From: Halogeometricum sp. S1BR25-6
GTDB taxonomy: Archaea > Halobacteriota > Halobacteria > Halobacteriales > Haloferacaceae
DNA: 64,000 nucleotides
Direction of reading: 5' to 3'
Assembly: GCF_031624495.1 (NCBI RefSeq)
Contig: NZ_JAMQOP010000002.1
Coordinates: 682,001-746,000, forward strand
The stretch's first letter is position 1. Every line of letters begins with the position of its first letter. The position numbers and the translations under genes were made by a program. This document shows positions 9,036 through 32,659 of the stretch, piece by piece. The notes beneath the pieces are model-generated. The model made no database searches. It was not told the origin of the DNA and was given only the letters and a program-made list of their open reading frames with translations.

Positions 9036-9851
9036 TCAGACCGGTCCCGTCCGCTCGACGGCCGCCTCGAACGCGTCGAGGAACGTCGGGTCGTACGACT
9101 CCTCGACGTGCTCGACGTTCCAGAGCCCCGAGGTGCGAATCTTCGCGCTCCGCGCGTAGTCGCCGAGCCAGTCGCTCCGCCGCGGGTCGATTGGGGAACG
9201 GTCGTATAGTGGCGTTCGCAACCGATTACTCACCCGACCGCACGACGTCGTGCGGTCGGTGAGCGAAGACTTGCGAACGCTACTATAGTTGCTCAGCAGC
9301 GCAATGAGGTTCCGTTCGAGATACGCCCGGTCGCTGTCGGGTCCCGGTTCGTCGTCCACGTCGACCCAGAGAAACGGCTGGTCGCGGAGGAACGCGCTGA
9401 CCCGCCGTTCCAGCGGGTACTCCTCGTCGCGCACGTCGCTCCGCTCGCGCCCCTCGGGAATTCGTGGGGTTCCCCAGTCGGGATACCTGTCGTGGAGGGC
9501 GTACCGCTCGACGAACGCCTCGCCGACGCGGCGGCGGTAGACGGACCCGCGGTGGTTGCCGCCGTGCGGGTGTGCCGAACTGCGCGCGCCGGTGCCGTAG
9601 TGCTGTTTCACCCGGTCCCACATCGTCGTCGAACTCCCCGCGGAGACGGCGTGCGTGCCGACCCGCGTCACGCGGCGCGCGCCGCTTCCCGCCCGCGTCT
9701 CGCCCGGCGCGAGGAAGAGGTACACCCCGCGAGCGGGCCAGTCCATCCGGCCCGTGCAGTCGCCGAGGCGACGCGCGCCGCCGACCCGTTCGTCGAGTCG
9801 AGCGAGGAGGGCGTACAACCGGTCGAGGTCCGCGCGCCTGTCCTTCGTCAC
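9036..9851 (-). CDS. GIY-YIG-like domain protein carrying an in-frame palindromic insertion
   Basis: The 271-residue protein opens with a helical part, then ARGVYLFLAPGE and RVGTHAV, placed like the two strands of the GIY-YIG nuclease fold, followed by LWDR-type (here MWDRVKQH) and HRGSVYRRRVG motifs; a later YLERNLIALL could supply the metal-binding Glu. This suggests a nuclease-like fold; the assignment is by pattern only. Residues 188-215 are encoded by an 85-bp palindrome (9204-9288): the flanks read ...LLSNY and DRSPIDPRR..., which would join into a sensible continuous sequence without it. The insertion keeps the frame, so a full-length protein with a 28-residue extra loop is still predicted. 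Confidence 0.65.
   Translation of the reverse strand: MTKDRRADLDRLYALLARLDERVGGARRLGDCTGRMDWPARGVYLFLAPGETRAGSGARRVTRVGTHAVSAGSSTTMWDRVKQHYGTGARSSAHPHGGNHRGSVYRRRVGEAFVERYALHDRYPDWGTPRIPEGRERSDVRDEEYPLERRVSAFLRDQPFLWVDVDDEPGPDSDRAYLERNLIALLSNYSSVRKSSLTDRTTSCGRVSNRLRTPLYDRSPIDPRRSDWLGDYARSAKIRTSGLWNVEHVEESYDPTFLDAFEAAVERTGPV
9204..9288. repeat. 85-bp palindromic element (MITE-like) inside a coding sequence
   Basis: The outer arms 9204-9221 and 9271-9288 match as an inverted repeat in 16 of 18 positions (core GCGTTCGCAA / TTGCGAACGC). The inner arms 9229-9246 and 9247-9263 match completely except for one bulged C, and are centred on CACGAC/GTCGTG. About 7 bases per side between the arms do not pair. 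The element sits in the gene at 9036-9851 and adds 28 codons (84 bp) without a frameshift. TA stands at both outer borders, so a TA target duplication is possible. No second copy was noticed in the window. Confidence 0.8.
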
Positions 9852-29383: not shown

Positions 29384-29468
29384 GCGGGGGTGGCTGAGCT
29401 AGGCCAAAGGCGGCGGACTTAAGATCCGCTCTCGTAGGAGTTCATGGGTTCGAATCCCATCCCCCGCA
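29384..29468 (+). tRNA. tRNA-Leu (anticodon UAA)
   Basis: The 85-base gene folds as a class II tRNA. Acceptor arms GCGGGGG (29384-29390) and CCCCCGC (29461-29467) pair, followed by discriminator A. The anticodon arm has stems GCGGA/TCCGC around the loop CTTAAGA, so the anticodon is TAA (reads UUA/UUG leucine). A long variable arm and a T arm with GGTTCGAATCC are present. CCA is not encoded. No intron is seen. No repeat of its 3' end was noticed nearby, so it is not an evident integration site. Confidence 0.95.
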
Positions 29469-30365: not shown

Positions 30366-30551
30366 ATGTCGGTGATGCCCGCCAACGAGCCCACGCGATT
30401 CGACTACCTCCTCGCGGTGATGGGAGTCAGTCTCGCCTGCGCCGCCGTGCTGGGCGTCCTCTCGTCGATTCCCGTCTACCTCGCGGCCAGCGCCGGGTCC
30501 ATCCTCGCCGCGGGCGTCCTCGTCGGCGGCACCCTCGGAGAGTATCTGTAG
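30366..30551 (+). CDS. Small two-helix membrane protein
   Basis: The 61-residue protein has a polar start (MSVMPANEPTRFDY) and two hydrophobic segments at about residues 16-31 and 36-56, ending GGTLGEYL. A TATA-like TTATAT lies about 15 bases before the ATG. No family is recognised, but the composition is coding-like and similar tiny membrane proteins are common in haloarchaea. Confidence 0.6.
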   Translation: MSVMPANEPTRFDYLLAVMGVSLACAAVLGVLSSIPVYLAASAGSILAAGVLVGGTLGEYL

Positions 30552-30674
30552 TCCGGGAGCTCTCCGCTCGACGTCGTTTCTCGACCGTCCGCAGAAGACT
30601 TTCGCGAGCGCCGTCGCTGTGAATTTCGCGTATCGCGTCCGACGGACGGCACGCTCAGAATGTGAGTATCGTGG

Positions 30675-30768
30675 GAAAAGGTAGCGCCCGTTCGGGAACA
30701 GCCCGAACGGACGCTGCCGCCCTGAATTGGTCCCCGCTGACGCTTCGGCCCTCCAAAGCGAAGCGTCA
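30675..30768 (-). ncRNA. Candidate structured small RNA, about 94 nt
   Basis: The 347-base gap between 30552 and 30898 has no gene, but on the minus strand it holds a compact RNA-like unit. A CTTAAG box (30797-30792) is followed, at the usual initiation distance, by a perfect 10-bp hairpin (TGACGCTTCG/CGAAGCGTCA, 30768-30738) with GGAGGG in its loop. About 22 bases later comes a 14-bp hairpin (30715-30683, one G-U pair) with a 5-base loop, and then TTTT (30679-30676), which resembles an archaeal termination signal. No reading frame of coding character crosses it. Identity with a known RNA family was not recognised. Confidence 0.5.
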
Positions 30769-30791
30769 CTTACGTCCAAGCCGGGGAACCA

Positions 30792-30797
30792 CTTAAG
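30792..30797 (-). promoter_or_regulatory. TATA-like box before the candidate small RNA
   Basis: CTTAAG on the minus strand, 24-29 bases before the first hairpin, in a G+C-rich setting. The upstream activator (BRE) element is not clear. Confidence 0.35.
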
Positions 30798-30898
30798 CGT
30801 GCCGCACGCTCGCAAACTCTCCGGTTGTGTGCCCGCTGTCGGGAATGAGGGGGGCCGAACGCGAGGGGCTTTTGTCCCGCGAACGCCTCTCCCGTCCT

Positions 30899-31399
30899 AT
30901 GAGCGAACTACCCGACAGGGCGCGGCGCGCCCTCAGCGACCACGACTCCTTCGAGAAGCGAGACGGGTCCACGTACGAGTGGACCGCGACGGCGTTCGAC
31001 GGCCGGGTCGACGTCGGCGAAAACGAGGGAGAGATCACGTTCGACGTGACCGTCCGCGTGCCGATGCTCGACGACGTCACGGAGGACGAGGTGGCGCCCG
31101 TCGTCGAGGACGGTTGGTACGAGACGTTCGCGTTGCGCGTCGAGGACGTGGGCGGCGTGACGAAGAAGGAACGCGACCTCGACGTGGACGTGACCCGCGA
31201 GGTGACGTCGGCCGTCGTCAGGACGTCGTTCTCGGACATCAACGAACGGCGGGGCGTCGAGGACGCCGGTGCCGTCGTCGACTACGTGGAGGGAACGTAC
31301 GTGCAGGGAGTCATCCCCGGCTACGAGTACACCGACCCCGTCGCGGGCCTCATCAACCGCGCGACCGACGCGGCGAACAGCGAAGGAACGCCGCTCTGA
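30899..31399 (+). CDS. DUF5813-like conserved haloarchaeal protein
   Basis: The 166-residue soluble, acidic protein appears to be mixed alpha/beta: residues 20-60 are beta-rich (TYEWTATAFDGRVDV, ITFDVTVRVPML), and the C-terminus has VVDYVEGTYVQGVIPGYEYTDPVAGLINRA. I match it to the haloarchaeal DUF5813 family by overall pattern, without a search. A TTTTGTCC box begins 29 bases before the ATG. Function unknown. Confidence 0.7.
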   Translation: MSELPDRARRALSDHDSFEKRDGSTYEWTATAFDGRVDVGENEGEITFDVTVRVPMLDDVTEDEVAPVVEDGWYETFALRVEDVGGVTKKERDLDVDVTREVTSAVVRTSFSDINERRGVEDAGAVVDYVEGTYVQGVIPGYEYTDPVAGLINRATDAANSEGTPL

Positions 31400-31415
31400 C
31401 CCGGGCACCCCCGAT

Positions 31416-31646
31416 TCAGTCCATCGCGATGTACGTCTGGGTGTCCTCGATGCCGGACATCTCGTGGATGGACGCGGCTATCTCTTTGACCTGCGCGGTG
31501 TCGTCCACGCTCGTTTTGACGATGAAGTCCACGTCGCCGGCGACGATGCTGACGCTCTCGACGCCGTCGTGGAGGTCCAGCATGGAGCGTTTCAGTCCGT
31601 CGACGTCGCCCGTCGACGCCTTCACCATCACGTAGGCGGTCACCAT
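31416..31646 (-). CDS. Stand-alone Lrp/AsnC ligand-binding (RAM) domain protein
   Basis: The 76-residue protein is only the ligand-binding half of an Lrp/AsnC regulator: MVTAYVMVKAS, then VESVSIVAGDVDFIVKTSV and a final TQTYIAMD. It has no DNA-binding helix-turn-helix. Start set at the ATG at 31646, one base after the TrkA stop (a GTG at 31655 would overlap). Such domains form dimers and bind small molecules such as amino acids. A clear paralogue (32426-32659) lies on the other side of trkA, so the pair may sense a metabolite that tunes K+ uptake. Regulation by this protein is inferred. Confidence 0.88.
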   Translation of the reverse strand: MVTAYVMVKASTGDVDGLKRSMLDLHDGVESVSIVAGDVDFIVKTSVDDTAQVKEIAASIHEMSGIEDTQTYIAMD

Positions 31647-31647
31647 C

Positions 31648-32334
31648 TCAGGCACCCCCCGCGGCGGCGGCGACGCCGCTTTCGCCGACGATCAACTGTC
31701 TGACCTCCCCGAGTACCTCGAAGTCGGCGAGGATGGCCAACCGGTCGCCCGTCTCCAAGGAGTCGTCGGTCATCGGAATGCCCATCGGCTGGTCGGCCTT
31801 GCCGAACGCGATAACGCGCGCGTGCGCCGGGAGCGCCACCTCCTCGATGGAGTACCCGTGCATCGGGGAGTCGTCGCTGACGGTCATGAGGACGACCTGG
31901 AGGTTCTGTGCGATGTCCGCGATGGCCCGGACCGAGCCGCCGAGTAGGGCGTTCTTCGCGCCGATGGCGCCCAGTCGCTCCGGGTAGACCACCTGGTCGA
32001 CCTGGTCGGCGTACTTCTGGTACACCTCCTCGCGATAGTCCTCGTCGACCCGGAGCACCGTCCGGAGCCCGTGGTGTTTGGCGATGGAGCAGGCCGCGAA
32101 GTTGACGTTCAAGTCGCTCGTGAGCGCTCCGAGAGCGTCGGCGTCGCCGACGCCCGCACGTTCGAGCACGTCCTCGCGGGAGCCGTCGCCTTCGACTATC
32201 TCGAAGCCCGCTTCGCGAGCGCGTTCGGCTCTGTCGTCGTCGATTTCGACGAGCGTCACCTCGTGGCCTTCGTCTCTGAGAACACGGGCCGTTCGAAGCC
32301 CCACACGTCCTGACCCAATGATAACGAATCGCAT
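31648..32334 (-). CDS. trkA: TrkA family potassium uptake regulator (RCK domain)
   Basis: The 228-residue cytoplasmic protein has an N-terminal NAD-binding Rossmann domain (MRFVIIGSGRVGLRTARVL, then LVEIDDDRAERA with the acidic ribose contact) and a C-terminal RCK_C/TrkA_C domain (about residues 140-215, with YSIEEVALPAHARVIAF). It gates Trk/Ktr-type K+ transporters in response to nucleotide binding. The start was set at the ATG at 32334; a longer frame to 32427 would overlap the divergent gene. The stand-alone RAM gene follows within one base. Confidence 0.9.
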   Translation of the reverse strand: MRFVIIGSGRVGLRTARVLRDEGHEVTLVEIDDDRAERAREAGFEIVEGDGSREDVLERAGVGDADALGALTSDLNVNFAACSIAKHHGLRTVLRVDEDYREEVYQKYADQVDQVVYPERLGAIGAKNALLGGSVRAIADIAQNLQVVLMTVSDDSPMHGYSIEEVALPAHARVIAFGKADQPMGIPMTDDSLETGDRLAILADFEVLGEVRQLIVGESGVAAAAGGA

Positions 32335-32425
32335 GGGAAAGCAGTACGCTGTCTGAGATGAATAAGCTTCCCCCGTTGGACCGGTCGGCGCAAACGCTAT
32401 GTCGCGTGCCGTGCACCACCATACC

Positions 32426-32659
32426 ATGGTACACGCCTACATCATGGTGAAGACGGGGGCGGGCGTCTCCGAGACGCTCCTCGCGCCGATTCGGGAGTTA
32501 GAGACGGTGACGGAGGCGCACGTCGTCGCGGGCGCGTACGACATCATCGCGGAGGTGACGTCCGACGAGGTGTATCAGGTCCTTCAGACGGCCTCCAGCG
32601 GGATTCAGGGGCTCGACGGCGTCACCGATACGAAGACGTACATCTCGATGGAAGACTGA
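32426..32659 (+). CDS. Stand-alone Lrp/AsnC ligand-binding (RAM) domain protein
   Basis: The 77-residue protein is a ligand domain without helix-turn-helix: MVHAYIMVKTGAGVSETLL, HVVAGAYDIIAEVTSD, and a final TKTYISMED. It is a paralogue of the protein at 31416 (same opening and same ending pattern). The ATG at 32426 is preferred over one at 32399, since homologues of this type begin with MVxAYxMVK. It is transcribed divergently from trkA, from a shared 91-base control region. Confidence 0.87.
   Translation: MVHAYIMVKTGAGVSETLLAPIRELETVTEAHVVAGAYDIIAEVTSDEVYQVLQTASSGIQGLDGVTDTKTYISMED

Follow-up and report, generated by a model that had tools for sequence, protein, structure and literature searches.

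A structured small RNA with a G-rich loop and linker, predicted across an order of haloarchaea

The described systems that come closest to the RNA reported here are small RNAs of Haloferax volcanii. Two of these, sRNA132 and s479, are trans-acting, act on mRNAs and, like our RNA, are intergenic with BRE/TATA promoters of their own; sRNA132 also shares its plan of two stems and a single-stranded linker (PMC6560208). It differs in being confined to Haloferax and in having a pyrimidine-rich linker, in contrast to the order-wide occurrence and the G-rich linker and loop of the present RNA. Haloarchaeal small RNAs are hardly conserved as a rule, 22 of 27 tested being confined to H. volcanii according to PMC3956466. 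The same paper also catalogues hts10 (HVO_2213s, CHR 2078656-816/F), which follows HVO_2213, was both predicted and sequenced, was found in 18 other haloarchaeal genomes and gave mild phenotypes on deletion; structure, paralogue and family do not figure in the accessible text of that paper. Bacterial sponge RNAs of the CsrB/RsmZ type likewise carry GGA in a hairpin loop, a likeness of working that probably does not extend to membership: the RNA described here is archaeal, has two GGA motifs only and has no known CsrA. To our knowledge, hts10 has not been described as a structured family.

In the window, by which we mean the whole stretch of 64,000 nucleotides of Halogeometricum (Haloferacaceae) DNA that was analysed, the minus strand almost certainly carries a genuine stand-alone small-RNA gene (Table 1). 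An earlier note had picked out here a CTTAAG box, a 10-bp hairpin, a 14-bp hairpin and TTTT, and direct reading of the sequence found all four in place. The 5′ end of the RNA was set at 30768 ± 2 by TATA spacing and the 3′ end at the T run; the loop of the 10-bp hairpin includes CUUUGGAGGGC. The RNA folds with z = -4.4, none of 200 shuffles being equally stable, and the window contains a single occurrence of its 21-base core, allowing up to 3 mismatches, against 0 expected. Conservation among relatives, described below, is much the stronger evidence that the RNA is no chance product. Gene-like open reading frames leave a gap at 30552-30900 around it. The sole tRNA gene of the window, tRNA-Leu (anticodon TAA), lies at 29384-29468 on the plus strand. 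Beyond the hypothetical gene, two short Lrp/AsnC-type ligand-binding proteins that lack the DNA-binding part are encoded on either side of a TrkA-type gene, one as listed in Table 1 and the other at 32399-32659 on the plus strand.

Table 1. Features of the small-RNA locus (window positions) and of the gene beside plasmid-type copies (positions within the loci named)
Feature	Position	Strand	Remarks
Small RNA	30676..30768	-	about 93-97 nt; predicted ends
BRE-like CGGCA, 5′ of TATA box	30800..30804	-	read directly and from copy consensus
TATA box CTTAAGT	30791..30797	-	CTTAAG = 30797-30792; read directly and from copy consensus
5′ hairpin, 10-bp perfect stem TGACGCTTCG/CGAAGCGTCA	30738..30768	-	arms 30768-30759 and 30747-30738
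Apical loop CTTTGGAGGGC	30748..30758	-	TGGAGGGC invariant; 5′ side variable in length
Single-stranded G-rich linker GCGGGGACCAATTCAGGGCGG	30717..30737	-	GCGGGGACC nearly invariant
3′ terminator-like hairpin AGCGTCCGTTCGGG...CCCGAACGGGCGCT	30683..30715	-	14 bp including one G-U; structure kept, sequence variable
T run at 3′ end	30676..30679	-	TTTT (UUUU in RNA); read directly
Conserved haloarchaeal hypothetical gene	30901..31400	+	promoter side of RNA; no Pfam or NCBIfam match
Small membrane-protein-like gene	30366..30551	+	convergent, downstream of RNA
Lrp-like gene	31416-31655	-	with hypothetical gene, marks paralogous locus
325-aa protein gene	L255 3920-4897; L257 407-1384; also L174, L246, L247, L249, L296, L297		

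Comparison of 178 distinct copies bears out the proposal that this is an independently transcribed, structured haloarchaeal RNA. A BRE of consensus C(163/178)G(154/178)nYA(166/178) occupies -36 to -32 relative to the RNA start, followed by a TATA consensus TTTAAGT at -29 to -23, in which the T, T and A at -28 to -26 are found in 174, 173 and 167 copies, and by a weaker conserved T at -10. The copies thus have, at the proper distance, the BRE/TATA promoter by which independent intergenic small RNAs of haloarchaea are recognised. The end signal ascribed to the RNA also holds up, a terminator-like hairpin being present in virtually all copies. Its 5′ arm takes 134 distinct forms among the 178 copies, and its stem averages 10.7 bp where shuffles reach 6.6. 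Across 92 non-redundant copies the terminator region has a mean fold z of -4.2, against -0.0 for an upstream control. Changes on both sides are seen at three pairs of the copy-A terminator among seven gap-free sequences.

The structural claim had been staked on covariation in relatives, and compensatory changes are what we found. When 21 distinct core variants are scored over the ten pairs of the stem, 94% of cells hold a pair, against 29-46% when the pairing is slid, and the covariation score of the stem exceeds those of all 500 shuffles and of all slid controls. At pair 8-25, U-A gives way to C-G in four variants and to U-G in a fifth; pair 9-24 undergoes a compensatory change from C-G to U-A, and seven variants have G-U in place of A-U at pair 3-30. 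Pairing is less well kept at the outermost positions, 1-32 and 2-31. The U-A to C-G change at 8-25 arose at least twice, in chromosomes of one genus (g58; L291 and L292) and in plasmid-type copies (L255 and L295-L297). Every genuine copy altered at position 25 is still paired, by compensation or as U-G; the one unpaired exception, L293, proved to be a chance match within a gene. Both strands had been judged non-coding, and the copies agree: loop length varies from 9 to 13 nt, differing by 1-4 nt between invariant flanks, so that no reading frame is kept, and a GTG at the RNA 5′ end is not conserved among the 178 copies.

The RNA is found nearly everywhere in its order. A DNA search with 141 bases recovered a near-identical core in 55 of 60 relatives (36/36 in its own family and 19/24 in other families of the order), with stretches of about 54 nt that are 100% identical between families. 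The five non-matching relatives belong to families f2, f9 and f11 and include several small, incomplete genomes; a covariance model gave nothing convincing in them. Run over 295 genomes sampled across the phylum, the same model was positive in 52 of the 53 genomes of the order, the miss being G045, and detected no true copy in the approximately 242 genomes outside it, where the sole match (G183, E 0.001) forms another hairpin and lacks the loop motif. Most Haloferacaceae genomes carry two copies, as do all 15 Haloferax genomes. Conservation is greater in the single-stranded loop and linker patches than in the stem, the invariant segments being UGGAGGGC, within the loop, and GCGGGGACC, which follows the stem. 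Because loci L098-L215 were gathered with a pattern that fixed part of the core and are biased towards invariance, these statements rest on copies from BLAST and the covariance model and on a pattern that leaves most of the stem unconstrained. Gene architecture, structure, order-wide conservation and the presence of two paralogues are documented in this way at the level of sequence.

Searches for a known identity agree with the earlier note, which could match the RNA to neither SRP RNA nor RNase P RNA. With 4227 Rfam models, only the tRNA of the window exceeded a gathering threshold; a permissive search of 30600-30850 gave at best 22.2 against a threshold of 79 and 19.2 against 35 (E 0.21), and neither the second copy, the plasmid copies nor a compensated copy matched any model. 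The RNA sequence contains no C/D boxes (RUGAUGA, CUGA) and no ACA near its 3′ end, and no Rfam guide RNA matches it. No viral carrier of the core pattern was found in IMG/VR, where a looser pattern returned five coding coincidences, and no match to the RNA was found in phage records.

The copies occupy two main loci. Of 213 copies, 120, spread over most families, have a PadR-type regulator gene downstream of them in the same orientation, and we take this locus as ancestral because of that spread; among the copies listed, the regulator shares 81-100% identity with its Haloferax counterpart. The PadR-type gene beside one ancestral copy (L175, 5749-6036, minus strand) is extremely conserved, with orthologues in 108 loci, and beside its promoter the inverted repeat TTATT..AATAA resembles an autoregulatory operator. 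In the window-type arrangement, 29 copies adjoin the hypothetical gene and the Lrp-like gene is nearly always present. Since this set is seen in the RNA's own family, the window copy would be a paralogue of Haloferacaceae origin, a reading that comes from gene neighbourhood. A third, degraded copy near position 9690 of locus L250 (G035:C1:378703) retains TGGAGGGCC and GGGGACC with a decayed stem, and near position 9465 of L248 (G034:C14:94507-94535), not far from a tRNA gene, stands a lone hairpin that has the same loop and lacks the G-rich patch.

By gene order, numbering and strand, the H. volcanii orthologue of the window copy is very probably hts10. The window reads E1-alpha, Lrp-like, TrkA, 79-aa Lrp-like, hypothetical gene, RNA; in H. 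volcanii HVO_2209 is oadhA4 (PMC8305020) and HVO_2212 encodes a 78-aa protein (PMC12850539), so that the order and strand match HVO_2209 to HVO_2212, HVO_2213 and HVO_2213s. The Lrp/TrkA/Lrp arrangement also fits the numbering HVO_2210-2212. As catalogued, hts10 is 161 nt long against about 95 nt for the conserved RNA, and the two are equated by gene order, numbering and strand. The description of this RNA as uncharacterised therefore stands for family and structure, of which we found no record, and falls in so far as PMC3956466 has its probable orthologue detected by sequencing and deleted. Other candidates fitted less well. H225.2R (HVO_1727s2) of H. volcanii is similar in size (96 nt) and in the number of genomes that contain it (19); its number adjoins HVO_1728, the 16S rRNA gene, which makes it an rRNA leader and not the present RNA. 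The HVO_2876 motility locus and HemAT HVO_1126 were rejected as neighbours by gene order. We also considered the vesicle-enriched HVO_2908s and H3.2 (PMC10927574), as well as sRNA_60/61 and STRG.2577.4 (111 nt, 905,191 TPM), as possibly the same RNA. No pieces of its sequence were found in the texts of the open-access papers searched.

Mobile elements carry the RNA as well. Plasmid pHLAC01 of Halorubrum lacusprofundi has two copies and one Haloarcula plasmid has one; two further plasmid matches, H8 and H12, were discarded as isolated partial matches lacking the hairpin. The pHLAC01-type copies and their chromosomal relatives in several genera adjoin a divergent gene for a 325-aa protein, which has no Pfam, NCBIfam or PADLOC family match, and the pair is possibly a two-part mobile cassette. 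Stems vary among these copies, and the loop and GGGGACC patch are constant in all except L249 (GAGGGAC). About 400 bases downstream of one of its two copies, pHLAC01 encodes a TRAM-domain protein, a putative RNA chaperone (L255, 5417-5854).

Free-standing as the window copy is, and with copies on plasmids, the RNA very likely acts in trans. As a whole explanation we favour, with moderate confidence, a stand-alone haloarchaeal RNA of about 95 nt that acts in trans on several mRNAs. Its own strong promoter would produce the RNA and an intrinsic-type terminator would end it; a rigid stem would present the invariant loop UGGAGGGC, followed by the invariant single-stranded patch GCGGGGACC; the two G-rich patches would pair with C-rich stretches of mRNAs and alter their translation or stability; and the 3′ hairpin with its U-rich end would both stop transcription and protect the RNA. 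That the single-stranded parts are the most conserved is the pattern of an interaction surface, and on whether mRNA pairing is the main mode our judgement is evenly balanced. Hexamers complementary to the RNA show no enrichment at the 597 start regions examined, and in coding sequence they show nothing beyond the seed itself, with equal depletion for the seed; matching sites are absent from the neighbouring PadR mRNA, and the RNA's own genome has no long complementarity to it elsewhere. Pairing of loop and linker with 16S and 23S rRNA is no better than that of shuffles. Because the ribosomal, seed-enrichment and PadR-mRNA tests gave no specific partner, base-pairing action, targets and mechanism are what we infer.

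The order-wide invariance exceeds that of many mRNA-pairing small RNAs, and a protein partner would fit it equally. An RNP housekeeping or sponge RNA, in which a protein binds the GGAGGG-loop hairpin and the GGGGACC patch and is stored or titrated, is to us the main rival, though an unlikely one; in principle such an RNA would be comparable to bacterial CsrA-binding sponge RNAs. The near-invariance, throughout the order, of the loop and of most of the stem, a GGA in the apical loop and a second in the linker, and the lack of any pairing partner that beats shuffles all argue for it; against it, usual sponge RNAs carry many GGA motifs in place of two, and no protein partner is known. We know of no CsrA in haloarchaea. 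Less probable still, the RNA could be a core housekeeping RNA of the order, whose hairpin and G-rich patch serve to bind a single dedicated protein or to set the global state of translation; this would be a functional class new to archaea, with which plasmid copies interfere or which they exploit.

We consider it improbable that the RNA is directed at the ribosome, its GGAGG loop pairing with the anti-Shine-Dalgarno tail of 16S rRNA so as to favour leaderless over Shine-Dalgarno-led translation or to store subunits. The exposed loop offers GGAGG, the complement of CCUCC at the 16S 3′ end, and ribosome-occupied non-coding RNAs, a class to which this RNA may or may not belong, are reported from H. 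volcanii (PMC12482152). The pairing amounts to five pairs only, at -9.8 kcal/mol where a full Shine-Dalgarno reaches -18.4, and the invariant U before and G after GGAGG mismatch the tail, which argues that selection has not extended it; the shuffle comparison with 16S and 23S rRNA counts against this reading too. The mimicry of a ribosome-binding site raised in the earlier note is for the same reasons weakly compatible with the loop, which matches the tail in GGAGG and not in its flanks.

It is very unlikely that the RNA is a cis leader or attenuator of the PadR-type gene and the window copy a displaced relic. The same-strand position of that gene in most families is what recommends this reading; but from the RNA start to the start codon of PadR there are 245-900 nt, the gene has a TATA box of its own about 40-50 nt before that codon in most examples, the terminator would end the RNA before the gene, and window-type and plasmid copies keep an intact core without any PadR gene. 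The window copy converges on a plus-strand gene and has no same-strand gene downstream, and is therefore not a leader there. That the locus is a DNA element, an operator palindrome or small mobile repeat, is scarcely credible: perfectly palindromic arms and additional plasmid copies would suit it, but each genome has a single copy or two, placed at fixed loci among conserved neighbours, a strand-specific promoter and terminator stand in fixed order, loop and linker are conserved along with the arms, and the stem tolerates U-G and G-U, which is relevant for RNA only.

Neither Rfam 15 nor the open-access papers searched appear to describe the RNA family, its paralogy or its covariation, and the plasmid copies tied to the 325-aa gene are likewise new. 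The transcript was probably detected earlier in one species, H. volcanii. A covariance-grade alignment could found an Rfam entry, and it lets any haloarchaeal RNA-seq data set be read for this RNA. Deletion of a single gene such as hts10 would leave the second copy in place, which may explain the mild phenotypes. Opposite to the published trend for haloarchaeal small RNAs, this RNA is nearly universal in its order, almost invariant and duplicated in Haloferacaceae, which makes it a strong candidate core regulator of haloarchaea.
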